Source of the DNA: Hymenobacter sp.
Lineage (GTDB): Bacteria > Bacteroidota > Bacteroidia > Cytophagales > Hymenobacteraceae
Reading direction: 5' to 3'
DNA: 34,524 nucleotides
NCBI GenBank assembly: GCA_025354605.1
Contig: JANXMN010000209.1
Coordinates: 1-34,524, forward strand
Positions 13,324 through 29,897 of the stretch are shown in pieces. Position 1 is the first letter of the stretch; every line of letters starts with the position of its first letter. Both the position numbers and the translations under genes were made by a program. Below the pieces are notes generated by a model, which saw only the letters and a program-made list of their open reading frames with translations, made no database searches and had not been told where the DNA came from.

Positions 13324-15753
13324 ATGAAAACGCGCCTCGTCAGCTGCCTGCTTTTCTTCTTGTGGACTGCCGGCTGGAGCGCGCGGGCTCAGGGCGTGGA
13401 GGTGCGGGGCGTGGTACGCACCGAAGCCGGGCAGCCCGTGGAATTTGCCACGGTGGTGCTGCTGCAGGCGGCCGATTCGACCAGCAGCGCCCAGGGCACC
13501 GTGGCCGATGCCACCGGGGCCTTCGTGCTGCCCGGCGTAGCACCGGGAGCCTACCGGCTGCGGGTGTCGTTTATTGGGCTACAGGCGCGCACGCAGGCGC
13601 TGCTGGTGCGGGCCGGCGAGGTGCCGGCCCCGGTGGTGGTGCAGCTGGCCGCCGCCACGGCGCAGCTGGCCGAAGTGAAGGTAACGGCCAACCGGCCCCG
13701 CATTACGCAGCTGCCCGACCGCTTGGTGATGGACGTGGCCAACACGGCCCTGGCCACCGGCTACACGGCCCTGGAAGTGCTCGAAAAAGCCCCCGGCGTG
13801 TACGTCGACCCCCGGTCGGAGAGCATTTCGCTGAATGGCAAGGGCGCCCTGGTTATCGTGGATGGCAAGCGCACCTACATGTCGGGGGCCGACCTGGCAG
13901 TGTTTCTGAAGGGCCTGGCCAGCCAGGAGCTGCAGAAGGTAGAGCTCATTACCAGCCCCGGCGCGAAGTACGACGCCGAGGGCGCGGGCGGCATCGTGAA
14001 CATCATCACCAAAAAGAGCCTGCTCGATGGCACCCGGGGCACCCTTACGGTGGGCCTGGGCGGCACCACCAACAGCCGGCAGACCGGCGGCTTCACGCTC
14101 AACCACAAGCACGGCCCCGTGGCCCTGTACACGGGCTACACCGTGGGCGGCCGCCAGACCACGGCCTCGGAGCAGGCCCAGACCGACTACCTGGCCGATG
14201 GCGTGCCCACGGCCACCCACCTGCTGACGGCCACTTCCACCACCCGCCAGCTGGCCCACAACGTGAAGGCCGGGCTCGACTGGCAGTTGAGCCCCCGCAC
14301 GGCCCTCAACCTGTACCTGCGCGGCCTGCGCACCGACCGCACCAACCCCACGCTGGCCACTACCCGGCTGCTGCTCTACCAGGGCCGGCCCGACTCGACG
14401 CTGACCAGCGATACCCGCACCACGTATTTCTCGACGCAGTACGCCGCCAACCTGGGCCTGCGGCAGGTGCTCGACACCCTGAGCACGCTGAGCGCCGACC
14501 TGGACTACTCGCGCTTCGAGGCCGCCAGCGACAACCTTATCAGCAACGAGTTCGGGACCGAGCAGGGCTCCGTGCCGGGCCGCAGCCTGTACCTGCGCAA
14601 CCACCTGCCCACCACCATCAACATCGTGGCCGGGCAGCTCGACTACGAGCGGCGGCTGCCCGTCGGCACGCTGGCGCTGGGGGCCAAGCACAGCTACGTG
14701 ACCTCGGCCAACGATGCGCGCTACGAGCTGCGGCAGGGCGACGTGTGGGGGAACGATGCCCGCCGCACCAACTACTTCACCTACCAGGAAAACATCACGG
14801 CCGCCTACGCCACCTTCGCCGGCAAGCTGCACGGCCTCGACTACCGCCTGGGCCTGCGCCTGGAGCAAACGGCCTCGCTGGGCCAGCTGCGCACCACCGA
14901 CGAGCGCAACGCCCGCAACTACCTCAACCTGTTTCCGTCGGTGCTGCTGAGCCAGGCCGTGGGCAAGCACGACTTTCTGAGCCTGGCCTACGGGCGGCGC
15001 ATCCAGCGCCCCAGCTACCAGTCGATGAACCCTTTCATCTACTTCCAGGATGTGTACACCTACTCGCAGGGCAGCCCGTTTCTGCGGCCCGAGTTCACCC
15101 ACGCCTTCGACCTGACCTATACCCTGAACAGCACCTACGTGCTGGCCGTGGGCTACTCGCAAACCTCCGACGTAATTGCCTGGGTGACGCAGCGCGAAAC
15201 GCCCGAGTCGCGGGTGTCGCAGACGCGCGCCCAGAACCTGAGCAGCCAGCGCCAGTGGTCGCTCACGGCCACGCTACCGTGGTCGCCGTGGAAGTGGTGG
15301 TCCATTTCCAGCTCGCTGAATGCCAATTACACCACCTACCTGCAGCCGGGCGTGGCCAACGCGCCCCGCACCATGCAGGGCGTGTCGGGGGTGGGCAGCG
15401 TGTCCAACGACTTTACGCTGCCCGGCAACTGGCACCTGAGTGCCTCGGCCTACGTGCAAAGCGCCCGGCCCGGTGGCGTTACCCGCCAGCTGGGGCAGCT
15501 GTCAGCCAACCTGGGGGCGCAGAAGAAATTCATGCAGGACCGGCTGGCGCTGCGCCTGATATACAACGACGTGCTGCGCACGGCTCGCGCCGTCACGATT
15601 CAGGAGTTCGACAACCTGCGCGGCCGCGACACCTACCGCTGGGACTCCAATTTTTTCCTGGTGTCGCTCACCTACCAGCTCGGCAACCAGAAGGTGAAAG
15701 CCGCCAACAAGAACCATAACGTGACGCAGGATGAAGAAGGACGCATCAAATAG
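13324..15753 (+). CDS. Outer-membrane beta-barrel / TonB-dependent receptor-like protein with CarboxypepD-like N-terminal domain
   Basis: Signal peptide; VEVRGVVRTEAGQPVEFATVVL carboxypeptidase-regulatory-like domain; plug-like LPDRLVMDVANTAL...VIVDGKRTYMSG...AEGAGGIVNIITKK; long C-terminal beta-rich region. Confidence 0.9.
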   Translation: MKTRLVSCLLFFLWTAGWSARAQGVEVRGVVRTEAGQPVEFATVVLLQAADSTSSAQGTVADATGAFVLPGVAPGAYRLRVSFIGLQARTQALLVRAGEVPAPVVVQLAAATAQLAEVKVTANRPRITQLPDRLVMDVANTALATGYTALEVLEKAPGVYVDPRSESISLNGKGALVIVDGKRTYMSGADLAVFLKGLASQELQKVELITSPGAKYDAEGAGGIVNIITKKSLLDGTRGTLTVGLGGTTNSRQTGGFTLNHKHGPVALYTGYTVGGRQTTASEQAQTDYLADGVPTATHLLTATSTTRQLAHNVKAGLDWQLSPRTALNLYLRGLRTDRTNPTLATTRLLLYQGRPDSTLTSDTRTTYFSTQYAANLGLRQVLDTLSTLSADLDYSRFEAASDNLISNEFGTEQGSVPGRSLYLRNHLPTTINIVAGQLDYERRLPVGTLALGAKHSYVTSANDARYELRQGDVWGNDARRTNYFTYQENITAAYATFAGKLHGLDYRLGLRLEQTASLGQLRTTDERNARNYLNLFPSVLLSQAVGKHDFLSLAYGRRIQRPSYQSMNPFIYFQDVYTYSQGSPFLRPEFTHAFDLTYTLNSTYVLAVGYSQTSDVIAWVTQRETPESRVSQTRAQNLSSQRQWSLTATLPWSPWKWWSISSSLNANYTTYLQPGVANAPRTMQGVSGVGSVSNDFTLPGNWHLSASAYVQSARPGGVTRQLGQLSANLGAQKKFMQDRLALRLIYNDVLRTARAVTIQEFDNLRGRDTYRWDSNFFLVSLTYQLGNQKVKAANKNHNVTQDEEGRIK

Positions 15754-16981
15754 CCCCGCCGCGCTGGCCGACCCCGACCCCGCGGCCCTGGCCACCGCCC
15801 CCCTGGCGCGGCTGGAACAGATTGCGGCCCGGCTGCAGGCCCCGCTGCCGCCGTTTGGCCGGCCGGGCTTTTCGGGCGGGCAGCTGGGGCCGTTCCTGTT
15901 TCTGTTCGCCTACGCCGCCCTCATCGAAGGGGCTGAGGAGGCCGCGGCGGCCGCCCAGCGCCAGCTGCAGGCCGCCATTCAGGACTTTCTGGGGCTGGCT
16001 CCCGGCCTGACGTATTACCGCGAGCTGGCCGAGTTCGGCAGCGTGCTGCTCTACTTGCAGGAGCAGGGCTACCTCGACGAGAGCGTGGAGCCGTTGCTGG
16101 AGCAGGTCGACCGCCGGGCCGTGCACGGGCTGGAGGCGCTGGCCGCCCAGCAGCAGTTCGACCCTTTTGTGGGCTATCTGCCGCTGGCGCACTACTTTTT
16201 GTGGCGCCACGCGGCGGCGGCTAGCCCCGGCAGTACGGCCATGCTGCGCCTAGCCGTGGATACGCTGCTGCGCGACTACCAGCCCGGGGCCGACGGCACC
16301 ACGGGTTTCTGGTTTTCGGGCCTGTTTGGCCAGCGCCAGATTTACCTGAGCTGGAGCCACGGGCAGGCCGCTATGATGCTGTTTCTGACGCAGCTGCTGG
16401 CCGCCGACCTGCCCTACCGCCGCCCCGAGCTGCGGCAGGTGCTGGCCGGGGCCGCCCGCTACTGCCTGCTGCCGCACGCCCACACCGGCCGCAACCGCTA
16501 CCCCGACATCGTGGACCAGCCCGGGGCCTCGAACACGCTGAACCTGTGCTACGGCGACCTGGGCATTGGTTTTGCCCTGCTGCAGGCCGCCCGGGCCCTG
16601 GCCGATGCCGACCTGGACCGGCACGCCCACCACACCCTGGCCCTGGCCGCCGCCCGCCGCGACCCCGCCGCGTGCAACGTGCACGATGCCTCGTTCATCT
16701 ACGGGGCCAGCGGCAACGCCATGCTGTTCAAGGCCCTGCAGCAGGATTTTCCGGAGCTGCCGGGGTTTGGCGAAGCCGCCGCCTACTGGTATGGGCAGGC
16801 GCAGGCCCTGTGCCAGCATCCCGGCCAGGTGGCCGGCTTCCGGGGGCACTACAACCAGCAGGTGCCCAGCGCGCACTACTCGCTGTTTGAGGGCCTGGCC
16901 GGCGTGGGCTTGGCCCTGCTCGAATTCGAAGTTGATTCCCTTCACTTGCTGCCCTTGTTGGGCTACCCCGCTTTCTCATGA
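15731..16981 (+). CDS. LanC-like protein with degenerate zinc site
   Basis: LanC-type repeats: YLSWSHGQAAMM, LNLCYGDLGIGFALL, YSLFEGLAGVGLALLE. The position of the canonical CHG motif reads FIYGASG. Confidence 0.82.
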   Translation: MKKDASNSPAALADPDPAALATAPLARLEQIAARLQAPLPPFGRPGFSGGQLGPFLFLFAYAALIEGAEEAAAAAQRQLQAAIQDFLGLAPGLTYYRELAEFGSVLLYLQEQGYLDESVEPLLEQVDRRAVHGLEALAAQQQFDPFVGYLPLAHYFLWRHAAAASPGSTAMLRLAVDTLLRDYQPGADGTTGFWFSGLFGQRQIYLSWSHGQAAMMLFLTQLLAADLPYRRPELRQVLAGAARYCLLPHAHTGRNRYPDIVDQPGASNTLNLCYGDLGIGFALLQAARALADADLDRHAHHTLALAAARRDPAACNVHDASFIYGASGNAMLFKALQQDFPELPGFGEAAAYWYGQAQALCQHPGQVAGFRGHYNQQVPSAHYSLFEGLAGVGLALLEFEVDSLHLLPLLGYPAFS

Positions 16982-18198
16982 CCACGGACACCCTTGTTTC
17001 GCCCCAGGCCGCTACCATCGCGCAGGGTCTGCGCATTCTGGCCCAGATGGCACCCCCCGCCGTAGCCGACCTGTCGCTCTTCACCGGTAAGCTCGGCCAC
17101 GTGCTGCTGTATGCCTACGCCTACAAGCACAGCGGCGCCGACGCCCATTGGCAGCGCCTGACCGAAACCCTGGACGACGTGCTGGCCCAGCTGCAGCCGT
17201 CCTCGTCGGCCCGCCTGCTCACGCAGCCGGGCCTGCTGCCCAATCTGGCAATGGTGCTGCAGGTGCTGCGTACCGACGACATTGCCGACATCGAGCTGGG
17301 CGAAGAAACCCTGACGCAGTTCGACGAGGTGGTGGGCAAGCAGGCGCTGGCCTACATCCGGGGCCGCAACATCGATTTCCTGTACGGGGCCACCGGGGCG
17401 CTGCACTACCTGGGCACCCGGGCCGCCGGGCGGCCGGTGGTGGAAGCCACCCTGCGCGACCTGCTGGCCGCGCTGCTCGAAACGCGGGTGGAAGACGAGC
17501 GGGGCATTCGCTTTTTCAACGCCCACATCAACCACCTCAACGGCAATACCGACATCAACCTGGGGCTGGCCCACGGGCACTGCGGCCTGCTGCTGGTGCT
17601 GCTGCAGCTGCACGAGGCCGGCCTGCTGCAGGATGAAATCGCGCCGCTGGCCGGGCGCATGGTCGACTACCTGCTGAGCCTGGAGCTGCCGCCCGAGCCC
17701 GAAAAAGGCCGGGTGTCGTTTTTCCCGGCCCGCCACGAAGACGGCCGGCCCCTGCACGACCCCCTGAACCGCCAGGCCTACAACAACCGCATGGGCTGGT
17801 GCTACGGCGACCTGAACGTGGTGCAGGTGCTGCACCAAGCCGCGCGGATGCTGGGCCGCCCCGAGCTCGACGCCCTGGCTTGCCGGGTAGGCGCGCACAC
17901 CTGCACGCGCCGCGCCGAGTTCGACTCGGGCATCGACAGCGCGCATCTCTGCCACGGCTCGGCCAGCCTGGCCCTGTACTACCGCCAGCTGTATGCCGCG
18001 CAGCCGCTGCCCTGCTACCGCGAGGCCCACGCCTACTGGAAGCAGGAAACCCTGGACCGGCTGCCCGCTGCCTACGAGCAGGGCGACGAGGCATTTCAGG
18101 CCTCGGGCCTGCTCATGGGCCTGCCCGGCCTGCTGCTCTGGCTGATTACCGAAGAGCTGGGCGAGCCGGTGGCCTGGCCGCAGCTTTTTCTGCTGTAG
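16978..18198 (+). CDS. lanC: Lanthionine synthetase C family protein (LanC-like cyclase)
   Basis: NLGLAHGHCGLLLVLLQL, GWCYGDLNVVQVL, HLCHGSASLALYYRQL: both Cys ligand motifs and His present; 4-nt ATGA overlap with the upstream gene. Confidence 0.9.
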   Translation: MTTDTLVSPQAATIAQGLRILAQMAPPAVADLSLFTGKLGHVLLYAYAYKHSGADAHWQRLTETLDDVLAQLQPSSSARLLTQPGLLPNLAMVLQVLRTDDIADIELGEETLTQFDEVVGKQALAYIRGRNIDFLYGATGALHYLGTRAAGRPVVEATLRDLLAALLETRVEDERGIRFFNAHINHLNGNTDINLGLAHGHCGLLLVLLQLHEAGLLQDEIAPLAGRMVDYLLSLELPPEPEKGRVSFFPARHEDGRPLHDPLNRQAYNNRMGWCYGDLNVVQVLHQAARMLGRPELDALACRVGAHTCTRRAEFDSGIDSAHLCHGSASLALYYRQLYAAQPLPCYREAHAYWKQETLDRLPAAYEQGDEAFQASGLLMGLPGLLLWLITEELGEPVAWPQLFLL

Positions 18199-18251: not shown

Positions 18252-19199
18252 ATGAAAGACTTAGCCATTGGACTGCTGGATTTTGGCGTGCGCCGCCTGT
18301 CGATGAACAGCCTGCTGCGCGTGACCGACCTGCTCGACTACGCCGCCCGGGCCGACCAGCTGGGCTTTTCGCGGCTCTGGCTCAGCGAGCACCACATAGG
18401 GTCGGCGCGCCAGGCCTGGGGCAGCCCCACCGTGCTGCTGCCCCTGCTGGCGGGCATGACCAGCCGCATTCGGGTGGGAGTGGCCGGCGTGCTGCTGGGC
18501 ATTCACCAGCCCTACCACGTGGCCGGCGACTACAAGATGCTGCACAACCTGTTCCCGGGCCGCATCGACCTGGGGCTGGCCAATGGCGGCGTGATGCCCA
18601 GCGTGGCCGAGCTAGCCACCGGCGTGGCCGGGATGAACATGCCGCAAGCTTTTGCGGATAACCTGGAAAAGCTGTTTTTCTGCCTGCGCCAGGAAGATGA
18701 GATGGCCAAGCTGGGCACCGTGCTGCCCCCGTTTCGCGGGTCGGTGCCCGACACCTGGGCCCTCACCACCAACATGGGTAAAGCCCTGCCGCGGGCGCTG
18801 CAACACGGCATGAACCTATCGCGCTCCATCTTTCACAAGGGCGCCGACCGGGAGTATCACAAGGCTGCCATGCAGGAGTTCCGCGAGGAGTACCGGGAGC
18901 GGCACGGCAAATACCCGCGCACCAACCTGGTGGTGGCCGGGGCCGTGCACCACACCACGGCCAAGGCCAAGGCGGCGGCGGCCCCCGTCGAGAGCGGCTA
19001 CGACTACAACGTGGTGGGCACGCCGGCCCAGTTTCACGAAACCCTGCTGCAGTTTCAGGAAGACTATGGCTACGACGAAATCATTATTCAGAATGTGGCC
19101 CTGCGGCCCAAAGACCGCGCCCTGGCCCTGGAGCTCTGGAGCGAAATGTTCGACCTGAAAAACCGCGCCATGCTTCCCCTCACCAACACGGTTGCCTAA
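18252..19199 (+). CDS. LLM (luciferase-like) class flavin-dependent oxidoreductase
   Basis: LGFSRLWLSEHHIGSARQAWGSPTVLLPLLAGMTSRIRVGVAGVLLGIHQPYHVAGDYKMLHNLFPGRIDLGLANGG; ATG at 18252 chosen within the longer ORF. Confidence 0.9.
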   Translation: MKDLAIGLLDFGVRRLSMNSLLRVTDLLDYAARADQLGFSRLWLSEHHIGSARQAWGSPTVLLPLLAGMTSRIRVGVAGVLLGIHQPYHVAGDYKMLHNLFPGRIDLGLANGGVMPSVAELATGVAGMNMPQAFADNLEKLFFCLRQEDEMAKLGTVLPPFRGSVPDTWALTTNMGKALPRALQHGMNLSRSIFHKGADREYHKAAMQEFREEYRERHGKYPRTNLVVAGAVHHTTAKAKAAAAPVESGYDYNVVGTPAQFHETLLQFQEDYGYDEIIIQNVALRPKDRALALELWSEMFDLKNRAMLPLTNTVA

Positions 19200-19322: not shown

Positions 19323-21509
19323 ATGTCTGCTTTCCCCTATTACCGGCAGCTGGAGACCATGGACTGTGGCCCCACCTGCCTGCGCATGATTGCGCGCTTC
19401 TACGGCAAAAATTTCAGCCTCGAAACCCTGCGCCACAAAACCCGGCGCAGCCGCAGCGGCGTGTCGCTGCTGGGCATCAGCAAGGCGGCCGAGCAGATTG
19501 GCTTCCGCACCGTCGGGGCCAAGGTGAGCTATAGCGCGCTGGAAGGCACGGCCAATCTGCCCTGCATCGCGCACTGGAACCAGGACCATTTCGTGGTCAT
19601 CTACAAAATCAAGCGCGGGCGGGTGTACGTGGCCGACCCCGGCCGCTCGCTGCTCTCGTACCCGAAAAAGGAGTTTCTCGAAAAGTGGCAGATAGCCCAA
19701 ACCCCCGCCGAGGAAGGCATTGTGCTGTTCGTGGAACCCACGCCTTCGTTCTACGCGGTGGAGGAAGAAATCGACTCCTCGATTGGGGTGGCCAAGATTG
19801 TGGCCTACCTGCAGCGCCACCGCAAGTTGTTCTGGCAGCTGTTGCTGGGCCTGCTGGTGGGGGCGCTTATTCAGGGCCTGCTGCCATTTTTTACGCGGGC
19901 CATCGTCGACATCGGCATCAGCACGCGCGACGTGCGCTTCATCTACACTATTCTGGCCGGGCAGCTGCTGCTGTCGGTGGGCCAAACGGCGGTGGAGTTT
20001 ATCCGGGGTTGGATTCTGCTGCATATCAGCACGCGCATCAGCATCGCCATCCTGTCCGACTTTCTGATGAAGCTGCTACGGCTGCCGCTGTCGTTTTTCG
20101 ATGCCACCATCACCGGCGACATCATGCAGCGCATCAACGACCAGCGGCGCATCGAGTCGTTTCTCACCGGCACGCTGCTCAACACCCTGTTTGCGGTGAT
20201 GAGCCTGCTGGTGTTCGGCACGGTGCTCTTCAGCTTCAGCCGGCCCATTTTCGTCATCTTTCTGGCCGGCAGCCTGCTCTACATGGGCTGGGTGCTGTTT
20301 TTTCTGCGTTTCCGCAAGAAGCTTGACTACAAGCGCTTCGACATCGCCAGCCAGTCGCAGAACAATATTATGCAACTGGTGGCAGGCGTGCACGAAATCA
20401 AGCTCAACGACTGCGGCAGCCACAAGCTCTGGGAGTGGGAGCGCATTCAGGCCAAGCTGTTTCACTTCAACACCGAGTCGCTCTCGCTGAGCCAGTACCA
20501 GCAGGTGGGCGCGTTTTTCCTCAACCACACCAAAAACATTCTCATCATCTTTTACGCGGCGCAGGCTGTGCTGCAGGGCACGCTGTCGCTGGGCGAGATG
20601 CTGGCCATTCAATTTATCGTGGGGCAGCTCAACCTGCCCGTCGAGCAGCTCATTCAGTTCAGCCAGAGTGCGCAGGATGCCAAAATCAGCGTCGACCGCC
20701 TCAACGACGTGCACCGCGTGGCCGACGAGGAGCCCGAAGACCAGCTGCTGCTCACCCACCTGCCCGACGACAAAACCATTTCCCTGCGCGACGTGGGCTT
20801 CACCTACCCCGGGGCCGGCAACCGCGCCGTGCTCCAGGGCCTCAACTTCGATATTCCGCAGGGCAAGATAACGGCCATCGTGGGCGACAGCGGCAGCGGC
20901 AAAACCACCATCCTCAAGCTGCTGCTGAAGGTGCAGGTGCCCGAAACCGGCCGCATTGCCATCGAAGACACCGACTACAACGCCATTTCGCACGCCGCCC
21001 TGCGCAAAGACTGCGGCGTGGTGATGCAGGACGGCTACATTTTCTCCGACACTATTGCCAACAACATCATGGTGAGCAGCGAGGAGAAAAACCCCGGTCG
21101 CCTGCTGCACGCCCTACGCATGGCCAACATCGAGCAGTTTGTGAAAGACTCGCCCCTGGGCCTCAATACCAAGATTGGGGCCGACGGCAACGGCGTGAGT
21201 CAGGGCCAGAAGCAGCGCATTCTAATTGCCCGGGCCATCTACAAAAACCCCAGTTACCTCTTCCTCGACGAAGCCACCAACGCCCTGGATGCCAACAACG
21301 AAAAGGTCATCATGAGCAACCTCAACCAGTTTTTTGAGGGGCGCACCGTGGTGGTGGTGGCCCACCGGCTGAGCACCGTGCGCAACGCCGACCAGATTAT
21401 CGTGCTCCAGAAGGGCAAGGTAACTGAGCAGGGCACCCATACCGAGCTGGTGGCCCGGCAGGGGGCGTATTTTCACCTGGTGCGCAACCAGCTCGAACTG
21501 GGCAACTAA
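19323..21509 (+). CDS. C39 peptidase domain-containing ABC transporter (bacteriocin export/leader cleavage)
   Basis: C39: LETMDCGPTCLRMIARFYGK, HWNQDHFVVIYKI...VADPG; ABC ATPase: GDSGSGKTT, GVSQGQKQRILIARAI, YLFLDEATNALD. Confidence 0.95.
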   Translation: MSAFPYYRQLETMDCGPTCLRMIARFYGKNFSLETLRHKTRRSRSGVSLLGISKAAEQIGFRTVGAKVSYSALEGTANLPCIAHWNQDHFVVIYKIKRGRVYVADPGRSLLSYPKKEFLEKWQIAQTPAEEGIVLFVEPTPSFYAVEEEIDSSIGVAKIVAYLQRHRKLFWQLLLGLLVGALIQGLLPFFTRAIVDIGISTRDVRFIYTILAGQLLLSVGQTAVEFIRGWILLHISTRISIAILSDFLMKLLRLPLSFFDATITGDIMQRINDQRRIESFLTGTLLNTLFAVMSLLVFGTVLFSFSRPIFVIFLAGSLLYMGWVLFFLRFRKKLDYKRFDIASQSQNNIMQLVAGVHEIKLNDCGSHKLWEWERIQAKLFHFNTESLSLSQYQQVGAFFLNHTKNILIIFYAAQAVLQGTLSLGEMLAIQFIVGQLNLPVEQLIQFSQSAQDAKISVDRLNDVHRVADEEPEDQLLLTHLPDDKTISLRDVGFTYPGAGNRAVLQGLNFDIPQGKITAIVGDSGSGKTTILKLLLKVQVPETGRIAIEDTDYNAISHAALRKDCGVVMQDGYIFSDTIANNIMVSSEEKNPGRLLHALRMANIEQFVKDSPLGLNTKIGADGNGVSQGQKQRILIARAIYKNPSYLFLDEATNALDANNEKVIMSNLNQFFEGRTVVVVAHRLSTVRNADQIIVLQKGKVTEQGTHTELVARQGAYFHLVRNQLELGN

Positions 21510-21595: not shown

Positions 21596-22711
21596 ATGTT
21601 GGATAAGTCGAAGGGGTTGACGGCCCTGCTTTCCGGTACCAGCGCCAACAAGCGGGCGACGGTGCTGCTGCACATTGCCTTCTGGCTGGTGGCCTACAAC
21701 TGGTTCGTGTTTCAGAGCCGGTGGCTGAGCGGCAACCTGCACCAGGAGGCCACCACGCTCATGGCCCTCACGCGCAATGTGGTGGTGCTGGTTGTCTTCT
21801 ACCTGGTGTCCTATTGCATCAGTCCGCGCCGCTACGTGCGGCTCACCTGGCTGTTGGTGGTGCTGCTGCTGCTGTTTTCGGTGGTGGTGTACGGCTTGCT
21901 GTCGTACTACTTGCTCAACTACATCGATGTGGCGTACCCGGATATGCCGCCGTACTTTAAGAAAATGACGGCCAACATGTCGGCCCAGGGACCCTGGACG
22001 ATGTTTATCAACCTGGACGTGCTGTATTTTCACATCGTTCAGTTGATTATCGCGTTTTTCATCCCGTTCATCATCAAGGCGTTCCGGATTATCTTTCAGA
22101 CCCGCGTGCACAGCATTGCCCTGGAGAAAGACAACCTGAAGCTGGAACTGGACTTTCTGCGCTCGCAAATCAACCCGCATTTCCTGTTCAATACGCTCAA
22201 CAGCGTTTATTCCCTTATCGAGGACAAGGATAAGACAGCGGCTTCCATCGTGCTGTCGCTGTCGCACATGATGCGCTACGCCCTCTACGACTCGTCGTCG
22301 ACGGAGGTGGAGGTGGACAAGGAGCTGGCCTTCATTCAGAACTACGTCGAGATTCAGAGCATCCGGCACCGCCGCCGGCTCGACGTCGACCTCGACATTT
22401 CGCACCAGCTCGGCACCCAGCGCATTCCGCCGCTGCTGCTCATTAACTTTATCGAAAATGCCATCAAGCACGGCATCGACAAGCTGCTGAAAAAGGCCTG
22501 GATACGCATTCAGGCGTATCGCGATGACCAGGGCGCGTTTTGCTTCAGCGTCGTCAATTCCAAGCCCAGCCGCCCCGACGATGAGCACGTCGAGGGCATT
22601 GGCATCAAAAACACCCGCCGCCGGTTGAATATTCTGTACCCCAACGCGCACACGCTGCACATTCGCCAGACCGACACCCAGTACGAAATCATGCTCCGGA
22701 TATGGCAATAG
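21596..22711 (+). CDS. LytS/YehU-type sensor histidine kinase
   Basis: Several N-terminal TM segments; LRSQINPHFLFNTLNSVYSLIED; ATPase LLLINFIENAIKHGI. Confidence 0.93.
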   Translation: MLDKSKGLTALLSGTSANKRATVLLHIAFWLVAYNWFVFQSRWLSGNLHQEATTLMALTRNVVVLVVFYLVSYCISPRRYVRLTWLLVVLLLLFSVVVYGLLSYYLLNYIDVAYPDMPPYFKKMTANMSAQGPWTMFINLDVLYFHIVQLIIAFFIPFIIKAFRIIFQTRVHSIALEKDNLKLELDFLRSQINPHFLFNTLNSVYSLIEDKDKTAASIVLSLSHMMRYALYDSSSTEVEVDKELAFIQNYVEIQSIRHRRRLDVDLDISHQLGTQRIPPLLLINFIENAIKHGIDKLLKKAWIRIQAYRDDQGAFCFSVVNSKPSRPDDEHVEGIGIKNTRRRLNILYPNAHTLHIRQTDTQYEIMLRIWQ

Positions 22712-23439
22712 ACAAGCGGCTGACCTGTATTATCATCGACGACGAGCCGCTGGCTCAAGAGCTCCTCGAAAAGTATGCTTCGCGGCTGCCCTCGCTCGAG
22801 CTGCTGGCTATTTTCGACGATGCCGTGGAGGCGTTGAACGGCGTGGAAACCCTGCGCCCCGACGTGATTTTTCTGGATGTAAACATGCCCCAGATGACGG
22901 GCATCGAGTTCCTGCAAACTTTTGCGGCCTACCGGCCGGCGGTGGTGCTCACCACGGCCTATCCCGAATACGCCCTCGAAGGCTACGAGTACAACGTCAC
23001 CGACTTTATTCTGAAGCCCATCACGTTCGAGCGCTTCGCTAAGGCCCTCAACAAGGTGCGCGACCAGCTGCTGCCTCCCGCGCCGGCCCCGGTCCAGGCC
23101 GCCGACGCGCCCGATGGCAAGCGCATGCTGCTCATCAAGGAGAACAAGCGGTTTGTGCGGGTGGCCGTGGGCGACGTACTGTTTGTGGAGGGCATGAAGG
23201 ACTACCTGAAAATCCATACCACCAACAAGGTCATCATCACGCACATGACCATGACCAAGATGGAAAGCATGCTCGACGAGGCCAGCTTTTTGCGGGTGAA
23301 CCGCTCCTACATCGTGCAGAAAGCGGCCGTGCGGGCCATCAATGGCAACGTTATCGAAACCATCAACAACGTGGAGCTGCCCATTGGGGTGAATTACCGC
23401 GAGGTAATCCGCAAGATTACCGAGAAGGGCGTGCTGTAG
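22702..23439 (+). CDS. LytTR family response regulator
   Basis: Receiver: CIIIDDEPLAQELLEKY...VIFLDVNMPQMTGIEFL...ILKPITFERF; LytTR domain: VLFVEGMKDYLKIHTTNKVIITHMTMTKMESML...FLRVNRSYIVQ. Confidence 0.94.
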   Translation: MAIDKRLTCIIIDDEPLAQELLEKYASRLPSLELLAIFDDAVEALNGVETLRPDVIFLDVNMPQMTGIEFLQTFAAYRPAVVLTTAYPEYALEGYEYNVTDFILKPITFERFAKALNKVRDQLLPPAPAPVQAADAPDGKRMLLIKENKRFVRVAVGDVLFVEGMKDYLKIHTTNKVIITHMTMTKMESMLDEASFLRVNRSYIVQKAAVRAINGNVIETINNVELPIGVNYREVIRKITEKGVL

Positions 23440-23445
23440 GCCCGC

Positions 23446-23910
23446 CTACCGGGCCAGGAACTTGGCCAGCAGCGACTGCCGCCGCAGCATGATGCGGGCC
23501 GTGCCCGAAAACGACGGGTAGAGGGCCGCGCCGGCGAGCGGGGCCAGCGTTATCACCACCGGGTGCTGCTGCTGCCGGGCCGTGGGCTCCACCCGGAGCA
23601 CGCGGCCCGTAAGGCGGGTGTCGCCCAGCTCGTGCACCTGCAGCTGCACGGCCTGCCCCGGGCGCACGGCCGCGTACTGCTCGCGGCCAATGGTGCCCAG
23701 CGCCAGCAGGCGGCCCGGGCCGGCAGCAGTCGGCGGGGCGGCCGCCAGGGTCACGTCAGTCGTCACAAATTCCGGGTACTGAAACCACGCCGTGAAGCCC
23801 AGCAGCACCACGAGCAGGCCGATAATTATCAGGTTGCCCCAGCGTAGCACCAGGCTGGGCCGGGTGAGCATGATTTCCTTGATGTCGTTGTGGAGGTAGT
23901 TGTCAGACAT
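23446..23910 (-). CDS. Short HlyD-like membrane protein, possible truncated/minimal periplasmic adaptor
   Basis: MSDNYLHNDIKEIMLTRPSLVLRWGNLIIIGLLVVLLGFTAWFQYPEFVTTDVTL resembles the HlyD-type N-terminus; C-terminal LTGRVLRVEPTARQ...SGTARIML; overlaps the lanB stop by 8 nt. Confidence 0.72.
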   Translation of the reverse strand: MSDNYLHNDIKEIMLTRPSLVLRWGNLIIIGLLVVLLGFTAWFQYPEFVTTDVTLAAAPPTAAGPGRLLALGTIGREQYAAVRPGQAVQLQVHELGDTRLTGRVLRVEPTARQQQHPVVITLAPLAGAALYPSFSGTARIMLRRQSLLAKFLAR

Positions 23911-26900
23911 GGGCATAGCGGACGGTGGTTGGCGGGGAGGAAACGCCCTTGCGCATGGCGAGCTGGGCAGTGTAGTGCTTGTGCAGCAGGGTGTAGAGGG
24001 TGAGTTCGTGCTGGCGGGGCTGCGAGAGCACAAACCGGTTGAGGTACATGTGCACGTAGCTGGCCAGCAGGTCGAAGCCCTGGTCGGTGGCCAGGATGCC
24101 AGCGGGGTGCCGGGCCAGAATGGTGGCCACCGCCCCCGCCCAGCGCTGCCGTCGGTCGGCAAACTCCTGCACGGCTTCCTCAGTCTCAGTCGCTGCATCC
24201 TCGATGGGGTTCAGGAAGCGCAGTAGCTGGCGGCTCTCTTTCCGGTACTTGTCGTTGAGTTGCAGCTGCAGGCCCTTATCGCCGCGAAACTCCTGGAAAA
24301 ACCCGCGGCTGAGGCGCTCCAGCAGCTGGTGCTTGTCGGGCAGGGCCAGCCCAAAGTCAGTCAGCATCTCGTCGAGGCCGCGCAGGGCCAGCAGCCAGCG
24401 GTAGGTTTCGCCCTCGTCGCCGCCCAGCAGGTTCAGCACGCGGGCAGTGGCCAGGCTGTCGTGGCCAAACAGCTCTTCCGAGGTTTCAATGTTGTCGGCC
24501 CCGTAGCGTTCCAGCTCGCGCACGTAGGTGTCGAGCTGCACCTTGTGGAGGCGGCCCTGCGCCAGGGCCGGGGCCAGGGCCTCGTTCAGCTCGTGCAGCA
24601 GCGTGCCCAAATGCACGGCCGGCGTTTCGGCCAGCTGAAAACGCAGGCGCAGATGAAACTGCGGGTCGTTGTAGCGAATAAAGAACCACTGCCGGATAAT
24701 GCCCCGCGCCCGCCACTGCTCGGCCAGCGGCAGCACCACGGCGCACAGCAGCTGGTCAAGCGATTTGGTGCCGCCGTACAGCTTCAGGTAGGCCCACTCG
24801 CTGCCCGGCAGAAACTCCCGGGCCGGGAGCGCGGCGTTGGTCCGGGCGCTGCCGCCGGCCTGGGGCCGGCCCGCCGCGTTAAACAGCGGCAGCAGCACTT
24901 CGTTGCCGAAGCGCTGGCCCTCGGGCCCCACGAAGCAGCGCTCGGGCGTGGCCAGGTACTCGGTGAGGCGCAGCACCCCGGTCTTTTCGAGCTGTTGCAG
25001 CAGCAGCTGCCGCGCTGTCGGAAAGTCGCTGTCAATCAGCAGCTCGTTGTCGTGCTCGGTCAGGCAGAAGTAGCGGGGCAGGCCGTGCGTGGCCAGGTAG
25101 GCGCGCAGCTGTTCGTCGGTAACCGGGCCGGTAGCTTTGGCTCCCACCAGCAGCTCGCGCCGGATGCACCAGCGGGCTTTGGCTACGATAATGTTCTTAT
25201 ACTCCACGCGCGGCAGGAAGGCCTGCTCGTTCAGATTGCCCCAGCTCCAGCCGGTGCCCGAATAGAGGCGGTCCTTCTGCAGGTCGCACAAAAACCGGTA
25301 CATGGGCAAGCCGGTGGTGTAGTTGTGAGCCGTGGAGAGGCGCGGTATCACCTGCTTGCCGAGGCGGCGCGAACGCAGCACCACCCGCCCCTGCCGCACC
25401 GATACCAGCAGGTCGTGGGCCGGCAGCTGCTGGTCGGCCGGCACGGTGGCGGGGCTCAGAAACGGAATTTCGTAGGCGCGCAGGTTCGGCCGCATCAGAA
25501 TGTTGCCCACCCGGGCCTCGGGCAGGTGCACCACTTCGGCATACACCACCCCGTCGGTATCGGGCTCGGCGCGGCGCAGGGTGGCCCGCACGTCGGCCAG
25601 CAAGGCCTCGTCGCCGTAGCAGAAGCGGCCCAGCAGGTTGGCCGCCGACGGCCCCGAGCACACGCCGAGCGCAAACTGAAACTGCCCGGCATCGAGCTCC
25701 CGGGCCGATTCGGCCAGCAGCGAGCCGAAGGCGTAGAGGCTGGCCGGGGTGGCCGTACCCGCGTCGGGCTGCTCGTCGAGGCCGGCCAGGTCGGCGGTGG
25801 TCAGCGCCACCACGCGCGTCTCGTCGCGCAGGGCGCGGTGGTACAGGTCGTGGGCCAGCTGCACGCTTTTCTTCCAGCTGGCGGTGGGCGTGGTGGGTTC
25901 CGGGCGCGGACTGATGCCTTCGAGCACGGGCAGGTAGTCGCCGTGGCCGGGGCTGGCGTGCCCGTAGCCCACCCCCGATTCGTTGTCGAGGGCCAGCAGT
26001 AGCGGGACTTCCTGCTCTTCAAAGCGCGCGCTGAAATCTTTGGCGAAGCGGCCAAGGTCGGGTGGCAGCTGCAGGGTGCCCAGCCGGCACAGCTCGCCCA
26101 CCTGCCCGGCAATGGTGCCCACCACCGAAGCGGCCAGCTCGTTGCGCTCGGTGTTATAGAATAAGTCGGTTTGAATCAGGTCTTTCGAACCTGATGGGCT
26201 GTACGTGTCGCTTAGCAGCTGGTGCGTTTCCTGGAAGCTGGCTACCCCGCCAGTGGCCAGCAGAGCCAGCAGGCGGTGCAGCGGAACTAGGTCGGCGGCG
26301 GGCACTTTGCCCGCCAGGCGAGCGGGCAGCCCATCGAGGTACAGCTCGCCGGTGATGGTCGGCTCCAGCTCACTCATCAGGAGCTGCGAGTCAATCAGCT
26401 GGTGCAGATATGCCCGCGCCTCCTCGCCCGAAGCGGTGGGCTCGGCCTGGCACACCAGGGCCAGCAGGTCGGTAAAAGTGCTGCCGGCGGCGGCGGCGGC
26501 CAGCAGTCCGGTCAGGTAGCTGGTGGCGGGCACCGAAGTCAGGGTGTAGCTGCGGCGCTTGTTTTTGACGGTGAATTCGACGTAGCGGAACGTGTCGCCG
26601 GTCTGGTAAAGGCTGTTATTGGGGAAATAACGCAGGTTTTCGCGCAGCGCCGGCGAGGTCAGCAGCTCCTGCACCAGCTCGCTCACGTAGTTCATGTCAA
26701 GCCGCGAATGCTTGCGCAATGCCTGGTCAGCAAACCGGATATCGGTTTGGGCACCCACCTGGCCCCGGGCGCACCCTGCAAACAGGCCGTAGGGCGTGCT
26801 GCGGGTACTCATGCGCAGCACGTACTTGTACAGCGTCAGGGCCAGCTTGTCGGCCTGTTTGGCCGAGTCGGTGCCGCCGCTGGCCAGCGCTTTCAGCAGC

Positions 26901-27118
26901 TCGGCGTGCAGCGCTGGCGAAGCCGTATAAATGGCTTCCTGGAGCAGTGGGTCGGCAAAAAAAGTCAGCAGTCGGGGCAGCAGCCCCTGCGGCGCTTCCT
27001 GCGTATCGGCGTGCAGCTGCCACACCGTTTGCACGGGCAGCAAAGGCCGCCGGAGCACATAGAAGCTTTCGGGTTCGAGTTGCAACGGCAACGCTGGCGG
27101 AGCGGAGGAAAGGCGCAT
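23903..27118 (-). CDS. lanB: Class I lantibiotic dehydratase, LanB-type, with SpaB_C/thiopeptide-type C-terminal domain
   Basis: 1071 aa; RMSTRSTPYGLFAGCARGQVG, LDMNYVSELVQELL, RVEYKNIIVAKARWCI; C-terminal EWAYLKLYGGTKSLDQLL and WFFIRYNDPQFHLRLRF elimination-domain-like motifs. Confidence 0.93.
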   Translation of the reverse strand: MRLSSAPPALPLQLEPESFYVLRRPLLPVQTVWQLHADTQEAPQGLLPRLLTFFADPLLQEAIYTASPALHAELLKALASGGTDSAKQADKLALTLYKYVLRMSTRSTPYGLFAGCARGQVGAQTDIRFADQALRKHSRLDMNYVSELVQELLTSPALRENLRYFPNNSLYQTGDTFRYVEFTVKNKRRSYTLTSVPATSYLTGLLAAAAAGSTFTDLLALVCQAEPTASGEEARAYLHQLIDSQLLMSELEPTITGELYLDGLPARLAGKVPAADLVPLHRLLALLATGGVASFQETHQLLSDTYSPSGSKDLIQTDLFYNTERNELAASVVGTIAGQVGELCRLGTLQLPPDLGRFAKDFSARFEEQEVPLLLALDNESGVGYGHASPGHGDYLPVLEGISPRPEPTTPTASWKKSVQLAHDLYHRALRDETRVVALTTADLAGLDEQPDAGTATPASLYAFGSLLAESARELDAGQFQFALGVCSGPSAANLLGRFCYGDEALLADVRATLRRAEPDTDGVVYAEVVHLPEARVGNILMRPNLRAYEIPFLSPATVPADQQLPAHDLLVSVRQGRVVLRSRRLGKQVIPRLSTAHNYTTGLPMYRFLCDLQKDRLYSGTGWSWGNLNEQAFLPRVEYKNIIVAKARWCIRRELLVGAKATGPVTDEQLRAYLATHGLPRYFCLTEHDNELLIDSDFPTARQLLLQQLEKTGVLRLTEYLATPERCFVGPEGQRFGNEVLLPLFNAAGRPQAGGSARTNAALPAREFLPGSEWAYLKLYGGTKSLDQLLCAVVLPLAEQWRARGIIRQWFFIRYNDPQFHLRLRFQLAETPAVHLGTLLHELNEALAPALAQGRLHKVQLDTYVRELERYGADNIETSEELFGHDSLATARVLNLLGGDEGETYRWLLALRGLDEMLTDFGLALPDKHQLLERLSRGFFQEFRGDKGLQLQLNDKYRKESRQLLRFLNPIEDAATETEEAVQEFADRRQRWAGAVATILARHPAGILATDQGFDLLASYVHMYLNRFVLSQPRQHELTLYTLLHKHYTAQLAMRKGVSSPPTTVRYAHV

Positions 27119-27389: not shown

Positions 27390-27584
27390 TTACTCCTGCG
27401 TTGGCAGGCCCCGGCAGTTGACCGGGTTGCAGCTAAACGCCGGGCACGACGACTGCCCGCCCTGGGTGGTTTGTTCCGGCTGCTGCCCTCCGGCAATGGT
27501 ACTGAGTTGGTCATCATCGAGTTTGGCAATGATTTCGCGGTCCAGTAGCAAGATGCGGGATAGGGTGATTCGCTTTTTTTTCAT
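27390..27584 (-). CDS. Lanthipeptide precursor candidate A1 (divergent leader and core)
   Basis: MKKKRITLSRILLLDREIIAKLDDDQLSTIAGG-QQPEQTTQGGQSSCPAFSCNPVNCRGLPTQE: GG leader similar to A2-A5, Cys/Ser core. Confidence 0.82.
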   Translation of the reverse strand: MKKKRITLSRILLLDREIIAKLDDDQLSTIAGGQQPEQTTQGGQSSCPAFSCNPVNCRGLPTQE

Positions 27585-27611: not shown

Positions 27612-27815
27612 CTAGCCGTTGCAGGAGCAGGCCTGGCACGAATTAATCGTGGGGAAGAAGTCGGCGGCTTCCTGCTGAACGCCACCGCCGTTGCACGTAT
27701 TGGTGCCGGCAGCCAGGCCGCCTTCGAGCGTGCCGAGCTGGTCTTCGTTGAGCTTGGCGATGGTTTCCTTGTCGAGCGACAGGGCATTATCGAGTTTGAT
27801 GGCTTTCTTTTTCAT
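27612..27815 (-). CDS. Lanthipeptide precursor A2
   Basis: MKKKAIKLDNALSLDKETIAKLNEDQLGTLEGG-LAAGTNTCNGGGVQQEAADFFPTINSCQACSCNG. Confidence 0.9.
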   Translation of the reverse strand: MKKKAIKLDNALSLDKETIAKLNEDQLGTLEGGLAAGTNTCNGGGVQQEAADFFPTINSCQACSCNG

Positions 27816-27869: not shown

Positions 27870-28067
27870 TTACACGGCATCAAACACGTTGCAGGAGCAT
27901 GCACTACACGATGCGTTAGTTTGTTGAAAATCACTGCCGTTACAGGTAAGGGTAGTTGGTGAGGCCAGGCCGCCTTCGAGCGTATTGAGTTGCTCTTCGT
28001 TGAGGCGCGAGATGGTTTCCTTATCGAGCGAGAGTGAGGTTTCGAGCTTGATGACTTTCTTCCTCAT
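27870..28067 (-). CDS. Lanthipeptide precursor A3
   Basis: MRKKVIKLETSLSLDKETISRLNEEQLNTLEGG-LASPTTLTCNGSDFQQTNASCSACSCNVFDAV. Confidence 0.9.
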   Translation of the reverse strand: MRKKVIKLETSLSLDKETISRLNEEQLNTLEGGLASPTTLTCNGSDFQQTNASCSACSCNVFDAV

Positions 28068-28104: not shown

Positions 28105-28305
28105 CTAGCCTACCGGCCCGTTGCAGGAGCAAGCATCGCAGGAGGGGCCGGTTTGGAAGCCTTCCTCGGCCAGCCGGGCGCAGGTATTGGTGCCGCCGGC
28201 AGCCATGCCGCCTTCGAGTTGGCCCAGCTGCTCTTCGTTGAGCCGCGAGATGGTCTCCTTGTCGAGCGACAGCGAGTTTTCGAGTTTAATGACTTTCTTT
28301 TTCAT
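28105..28305 (-). CDS. Lanthipeptide precursor A4
   Basis: MKKKVIKLENSLSLDKETISRLNEEQLGQLEGG-MAAGGTNTCARLAEEGFQTGPSCDACSCNGPVG. Confidence 0.9.
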   Translation of the reverse strand: MKKKVIKLENSLSLDKETISRLNEEQLGQLEGGMAAGGTNTCARLAEEGFQTGPSCDACSCNGPVG

Positions 28306-28338: not shown

Positions 28339-28542
28339 TTAATGATTGCAGGAACAAGCCTGGCACGAAGCAATCGTACCATTATCGAGGGCGGCGTCCT
28401 GCAAACCGGCGGCGTTACAGGTGTTGGTGCCGCCGGCAATCATGCCGCCTTCGAGCGTGCTGAGCTGGTCTTCGTTGAGCTTGGCGATGGTTTCCTTGTC
28501 GAGCGACAGGGCATTATCGAGTTTGATGGCTTTCTTTTTCAT
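28339..28542 (-). CDS. Lanthipeptide precursor A5
   Basis: MKKKAIKLDNALSLDKETIAKLNEDQLSTLEGG-MIAGGTNTCNAAGLQDAALDNGTIASCQACSCNH; internal ATG at 28542 chosen by alignment with A2-A4. Confidence 0.9.
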   Translation of the reverse strand: MKKKAIKLDNALSLDKETIAKLNEDQLSTLEGGMIAGGTNTCNAAGLQDAALDNGTIASCQACSCNH

Positions 28543-28651: not shown

Positions 28652-28858
28652 CTATTGGCGGGCCGTAGTTGGCCGGGCCTGTAAATGCTGAAGGGCTTCG
28701 TCGTCCTCAATCCACCAGTAGGTGTTCTCCGGCTTTATCTCGGCAGGCTTACCACCGAAAAAGTGGTCCATTTCGACGCTGGAAAGCTGGTCGGTGGCAG
28801 CAATAGATTTTGCCGCTTTGCTCGTTAAAAAATTGAGCGCCCGCTTGATGGATTGCAT
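28652..28858 (-). CDS. Small peptide with GG-type leader but no Cys
   Basis: MQSIKRALNFLTSKAAKSIAATDQLSSVEMDHFFGG-KPAEIKPENTYWWIEDDEALQHLQARPTTARQ; same strand, just upstream of A5. Confidence 0.6.
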   Translation of the reverse strand: MQSIKRALNFLTSKAAKSIAATDQLSSVEMDHFFGGKPAEIKPENTYWWIEDDEALQHLQARPTTARQ

Positions 28859-29420: not shown

Positions 29421-29897
29421 CTAAAATTTAGCCATTGTCTGCGTGACGGCATTCGCGAAGTCGTTATAAGTATACGGCTTGGTCAGTAGTTGAACGTGAG
29501 GGATGCTGACCTGAGCGACGGATTCAGGGGGGAATGCCGACGTAATAATTATGTTAGAAAAATGGGCCGCGAACAACCTCATTTCCGGGCTTATCCGAAA
29601 GTCGTTGGAGGGATTGTCCAGTAAATCCAGAAATACAATGTCCACGTCCGGTAATTCCGAAGGCGAGGTAATAGTTTCTATCAGCCATTTTATTTCGAGC
29701 CCCACGAAACGGTTGATATATTTTACCAATAACTCCTGCGCCAGATATTCATCTTCGATTATTCCGCAAGTAAACACGTGGTGGTTGGGGGAATAGTGAA
29801 AATTAAACGATGGGTAGATAGTAACCGGTGAGAGAGTACACTTCTCACATCTGCTCAGGAAGCAGAAAGGCTCAGAAAAGAGCCCTAGCGATGGCAA
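29421..29897 (-). CDS. Stand-alone response-regulator receiver domain protein (start uncertain; GTG near 29777 possible)
   Basis: CGIIEDEYLAQELLVKYINRFVGLEIKWLIETITSPSELPDVDIVFLDLLDN...LLTKPYTYNDFANAV parallels the receiver of the 22702..23439 regulator; no output domain. Confidence 0.7.
   Translation of the reverse strand: MPSLGLFSEPFCFLSRCEKCTLSPVTIYPSFNFHYSPNHHVFTCGIIEDEYLAQELLVKYINRFVGLEIKWLIETITSPSELPDVDIVFLDLLDNPSNDFRISPEMRLFAAHFSNIIITSAFPPESVAQVSIPHVQLLTKPYTYNDFANAVTQTMAKF

Follow-up and report, generated by a model that had tools for sequence, protein, structure and literature searches.

A LanC-like protein deficient in zinc ligands, hereafter LanC1, is encoded beside an intact LanC, LanC2, at 16 loci from 15 Bacteroidota genomes belonging to several families. 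The LanC of class I systems is usually presented as one zinc enzyme. The window, by which we mean the whole stretch of 34,524 nucleotides analysed here from Hymenobacter sp. contig JANXMN010000209.1, carries one such pair. As predicted from its genes (Table 1), it encodes the core modification machinery for class I lanthipeptides in a relative of Hymenobacter. Our preferred reading is that LanC1, together with LanC2 and a luciferase-like (LLM) protein encoded after them, may be a substrate-handling subunit of the class I machinery. We assign this explanation, taken as a whole, a probability of about 0.45.

Active-site residues of the two LanC proteins

Both proteins of the window match the Pfam LANC_like family (PF05147), with 59.3 bits for LanC1 and 84.8 bits for LanC2 against a cut-off of 23.2, and a profile search of the host genome detected no further PF05147 member. 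Residues for catalysis and zinc binding were located by alignment with NisC D141, H212, C284, C330 and H331, as listed in PMC10604976. LanC2 exhibits the complete D-H-C-C-H set, so that the zinc ligands which the initial annotation had placed in its WCYG and LCHG motifs are borne out. The equivalent residues in LanC1 are D144, H210, C273, I323 and Y324. Its motifs SHG (H210), LCYGDLG (C273) and FIYGASG (I323, Y324) correspond to AHG, WCYGDLN and LCHGS in LanC2. The zinc-ligand positions C284, C330 and H331 of NisC are therefore occupied by C, I and Y, in agreement with the same annotation, which had noted a retained LCYGDLG, a CHG replaced by FIYGASG and two of three ligands missing. D141 and H212 both have their equivalents, and the D144 column holds Asp in 48 of 48 aligned intact LanCs. 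According to these alignments, LanC1 has given up two of three zinc ligands while retaining the proposed acid/base pair.

AlphaFold models were obtained from very small alignments with three relatives at most (pLDDT of 65 for LanC1 and 68.5 for LanC2, pTM 0.69). Compared with known structures using VIA-align, the LanC1 model, an (alpha/alpha) toroid of the LanC type at this mean pLDDT, matched NisC first (Z 19.6, 341 residues, rmsd 4.1), then other LanC proteins and, further down, LanKC structures. The model supports the LanC fold only and not the site geometry, its pLDDT being under 50 for residues 249-273 and 316-318 around the site. Since the ligand loops are poorly resolved in both models, no zinc-site geometry was read from them. 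A PDB sequence search with LanC1 returned an unrelated match only.

Table 1 Features annotated in the window
Feature	Position	Strand	Length	Evidence or remark
Outer-membrane beta-barrel protein (OMP_b-brl_3 with CarboxypepD_reg)	13324..15753	+		Pfam E 9e-99
LanC1	15731..16981	+	416 aa	LanC-like, two of three zinc ligands lost
LanC2	16978..18198	+	406 aa	Canonical zinc LanC (D133, H199, C275, C325, H326)
Luciferase-like (LLM) flavin oxidoreductase, LanJC-type candidate	18252..19199	+		Pfam Bac_luciferase 5e-24
C39-peptidase ABC exporter	19323..21509	+		Pfam Peptidase_C39, ABC_membrane, ABC_tran
Sensor histidine kinase	21596..22711	+		Pfam His_kinase 7e-27
LytTR response regulator	22702..23439	+		Pfam Response_reg and LytTR
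Short HlyD-like membrane-fusion protein	23446..23919	-		Pfam HlyD_3 E 0.0014, below cut-off
Full-length LanB dehydratase with both N and C domains	23903..27118	-		Lant_dehydr_N 1e-164, Lant_dehydr_C 9e-65
Precursor peptide, 3 Cys in core	27390..27584	-		NF038153 class I lanthipeptide leader, 36 bits
Precursor peptide, 4 Cys in core (CNG...SCQACSCNG)	27612..27815	-		NF038153, 46.5 bits
Precursor peptide, 4 Cys in core	27870..28067	-		NF038153, 45.9 bits
Precursor peptide, 4 Cys in core	28105..28305	-		NF038153, 51.4 bits
Precursor peptide, 4 Cys in core	28339..28542	-		NF038153, 48.1 bits
Cys-free small peptide with GG motif	28652..28858	-		Similar peptides at same place in L036/L038
Receiver-like response-regulator protein	29421..29897	-	158 aa	Upstream of precursors, without obvious output domain

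Gene neighbourhood and precursor peptides

The class I assignment relies on a LanB with both Lant_dehydr domains near the LanC genes and on five precursors associating a class I leader with a core of Ser/Thr plus Cys. All five score above the NF038153 cut-off of 22 (36-51 bits), and the four-Cys cores found in four of them end in the form SCxACSCN. The earlier description of the surroundings had to be corrected in the light of the Pfam matches: the gene upstream of LanC1 encodes the outer-membrane beta-barrel protein, LanB lying on the minus strand. The barrel gene would be the first gene of a likely operon containing the lanC pair. The LLM protein matches the MsnO8 family but under the family cut-off. 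C39-peptidase ABC exporters cleave GG leaders.

Homologues of the HlyD-like protein occupy the same place in loci L036 and L038. The window gene, which is far shorter than typical membrane-fusion proteins and also than its counterpart frame in L036, may be truncated. The GG-motif peptide at 28652..28858 matched no Pfam or NCBIfam family and, being Cys-free, was ruled out as a lanthionine precursor. Other Cys-free GG-motif peptides lie near precursors at L036:4182-4373, L038:4179-4370, L113:5782-5955 and L125:3985-4197; of all these peptides, including that of the window, the 2 that were tested had no family match. They might act as a signal that is exported or as helper peptides.

Conservation of the pair in Bacteroidota

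Pairs were surveyed by searches at the genus, family, order, class and phylum levels, followed by locus-by-locus reading. The genus search yielded three close LanC1 relatives (69, 53 and 52% protein identity), each adjoining a LanC2 relative; two of them belong to Hymenobacter frigidus and H. perfusus. The combination of IY in LanC1 and CH in LanC2 is common to the window and the three other Hymenobacter species (4/4). Because IY is identical in three species at 52-69% identity, chance or a sequencing error could be excluded. With IY conserved in four species and dN/dS values well below 1 (see below), a sequencing error or a decaying pseudogene was rejected. In a scan of genome contigs, LanC1 alone as query detected 0 loci and an alignment as query three loci.

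LanC2 reads D-H-C-C-H at 16/16 pair loci. At these same loci, LanC1 reads DHCIY (4), DHCLY (2), DHCYY, DHCCY, GHCLF (4), SHCTY (3) or NCLQY (1); the CH pair, or at least its His, is thus lost in every case. An outer-membrane barrel gene adjoins LanC1 on the upstream side in most pairs. The ATGA overlap of lanC1 and lanC2, put forward in the initial annotation, holds for the window but is no general trait, being present in only some pairs, while in others the genes stand about 19-31 bases apart.

An LLM gene directly follows the lanC pair at all 16 pair loci, and of the 43 other clusters 3 have one (p 9e-12 by Fisher test, uncorrected for relatedness, the loci not being phylogenetically independent). 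Four loci (L117-L119 and L121) have two LLM genes in a row.

Origin and selection of LanC1

A tree of 79 LanC-like proteins was built with IQ-TREE. The 26 LanC1 proteins it includes form one side of a branch (support 100/99), apart from the branch holding the partner LanC2, and the split is kept after masking the ligand motif columns (SH-aLRT 97). Each LanC1 shares 16-23% identity with its own LanC2 partner. The tree, masked or not, and this low within-pair identity led us to reject a recent tandem duplication; judging from them, LanC1 appears as an old, conserved LanC paralogue.

Distances among the LanC1 proteins of the pairs correlate with those among the LanC2 proteins (Mantel r 0.946, p 0.0001), which demonstrates co-inheritance, by itself a sufficient cause, and is compatible with an interaction without proving it. 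The dN/dS ratios between orthologues (Nei-Gojobori) range from 0.09 to 0.44 for LanC1 and from 0.11 to 0.54 for LanC2. Purifying selection on LanC1 is at least as strong as that on LanC2.

Conservation was ranked over 395 columns for 25 LanC1-clade proteins. The H210 column ranks 23rd, with His in 23/25, and position 324 (NisC H331) is Tyr or Phe in 25/25; D276 and G325 are invariant. The position of the lost C330 ranks 311th, among the most variable of the clade. This is the pattern to be expected with selection acting on the pocket and no longer on zinc binding. Hence the metal site has been given up and the surrounding pocket kept. Some members of the clade have G, N, S or E instead of D144, and 8/25 have lost C273.

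We also considered that LanC1 might be an ordinary LanC with a zinc site rebuilt from other residues. Like H210 and C273, C315, located eight residues ahead of the lost Cys, and H373 do not vary among the four closest orthologues, for which they remain candidate ligands. Across the 25 proteins, however, C315 is Cys and H373 is His in just 5 each, no replacement Cys/His column is conserved or comes near the level of H210, and the weak model was unable to place the two residues. Alternative ligands were accordingly rejected for the clade, and a rebuilt site seems very improbable to us. The 16 pairs, the Mantel correlation, the purifying selection and the lack of an alternative Cys/His column all support the loss of the zinc site and a conserved two-gene unit.

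LanC1-clade proteins in clusters without an intact LanC

Twelve LanC1-clade proteins sit in clusters without an intact LanC2. A PF05147 search at E 0.001 found no second member in G041, G053, G018, G175, G213 and G334; in G041, G053 and G018, another LanC-like protein is encoded that is likewise devoid of zinc ligands. Clusters of this type contain LanB and Ser/Cys precursors. Since part of the clade occurs without a zinc-intact LanC, LanC1 is more than a mere accessory or obligate helper of LanC2. This counts against the substrate-handling reading, LanC1 having no LanC2 to assist at least there.

One alternative places LanC1 outside ring chemistry, as a LanC-fold binding protein serving export, immunity or regulation and tied to the barrel protein and the exporter. 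Consistently, the outer-membrane barrel gene precedes lanC1 also where the cluster has no LanC2, and in some Hymenobacter clusters two LanC-like proteins are retained, neither of which has the zinc ligands. Yet the active-site motifs are among the most conserved parts of LanC1, and in the window lanC1 has the barrel gene on one side and, with an overlap of 4 bases, LanC2/LLM on the other. We hold this role to be improbable.

At L145 (G701), neither LanC-like protein has zinc ligands, one belonging to the LanC1 clade and the other to the LanC2 side. A further, distinct group of LanC-like proteins devoid of zinc ligands, with Asp at the His212 position, was observed in other Hymenobacter clusters near kinase/regulator and LanB genes (L041:17190-18419, L211:1721-2959, L049:2160-3434, L052:9907-11172 and L214:9181-9999). 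Among the clusters with zinc-less LanC proteins, L039, L040, L041 and L042 encode two full-length LanB genes that differ in their similarity to the window LanB.

Comparison with known systems

NisC and the other class I LanC proteins share with the pair the fold and family (PF05147), all active-site residues in the case of LanC2, and the company of LanB and class I precursors; LanC1 differs from them in lacking two zinc ligands and adjoining a second LanC. Cyclases of the class III LanKC type function without zinc ligands. For instance, Ser, Phe and Asp replace the ligands in ThurKC, where Phe770 and Asp771 are required for cyclisation (PMC10604976). Like them, LanC1 associates a LanC-like domain without canonical zinc ligands with lanthipeptide synthesis. 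In LanKC, however, the cyclase forms a fusion protein with lyase and kinase domains, and D141 and H212 are lost as well, whereas LanC1 is free-standing (a LanC domain only), belongs to a LanB cluster and keeps H212, together with D141 and C284 in the window.

This precedent bears on a second live reading, in which LanC1 would be a metal-independent cyclase forming rings, or else crosslinks of the labionin-like or another Michael type, through H210, D144, C273 and Tyr324, LanC2 making other rings. It would fit with the D141/H212 equivalents kept in the window, the aromatic residue found clade-wide at H331, the clusters that combine LanB and Ser/Cys cores with zinc-less LanC proteins only, and the structural match of LanC1, which is best with NisC and extends to LanKC. 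On the other hand, LanC1 differs from ThurKC in having no Asp at H331, and as D144 varies and C273 is not always kept within the clade, there is no complete catalytic set common to all members. We consider such an activity rather unlikely, but it keeps appreciable weight because LanC1 is not simply LanC2's obligate helper.

LanC-like proteins without the C/CH motif also occur in Bacteroidota in the radical-SAM clusters of Bacteroidales. As far as the consulted part of that report goes, these clusters differ from the window in having no LanB and no described pairing with an intact LanC, and its authors doubt a lanthipeptide role (PMC10352776). Frankia EAN1pec has a class I cluster with two LanC genes, for which the portion consulted reports no ligand loss; we set it apart by this description and not by sequence (PMC3091789).

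The LLM protein LanJC has been proposed to reduce dehydrated residues in birimositide (PMC7268733). The window protein resembles it as an LLM family member in a lanthipeptide cluster and is a candidate only, the known case being a two-component Streptomyces lanthipeptide with class II precursor families. By analogy, we infer a possible link between the lanC pair with its LLM gene and D-amino acid formation.

We found no description of a conserved zinc-less/zinc LanC pair in the literature searched; as its coverage was incomplete, the novelty is provisional.

Possible function of LanC1

A copy without metal site that is kept in many species probably has another job, and a partner or substrate-handling role is plausible. 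According to the substrate-handling reading, LanB would dehydrate Ser/Thr in the five precursors and LanC2 would add Cys thiols to the dehydrated residues. LanC1, presumably unable to hold zinc in the canonical way, would most likely still bind the core, dehydrated and in part cyclised, through a cleft that is predicted to retain H210 and to have an aromatic residue where H331 was lost. LanC1 would act in a putative complex with LanC2 and probably also with the LLM protein, if the latter is a reductase, and may steer which dehydrated residues cyclise and which stay for reduction to D-amino acids. That H210 is kept, and in the window D144 and C273 too, exceeds the needs of a pure scaffold and counts against this reading. 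Of the initial proposal of a pseudo-cyclase acting as scaffold, regulator or partner, the lost zinc site and the conserved pair stand, the role itself being only one of the two live readings.

Tentatively, and with somewhat less than even confidence, Bacteroidota class I lanthipeptides may be the products of a cyclase with two subunits, of which the zinc-less LanC either cyclises without metal or, with the LLM reductase, decides between rings and D-amino acids. The finding also calls for caution with genome-mining rules that treat every PF05147 match as a cyclase. A conserved zinc-less partner makes it testable what sets the ring pattern in class I peptides, and in what way the LanC fold can act without metal outside class III.
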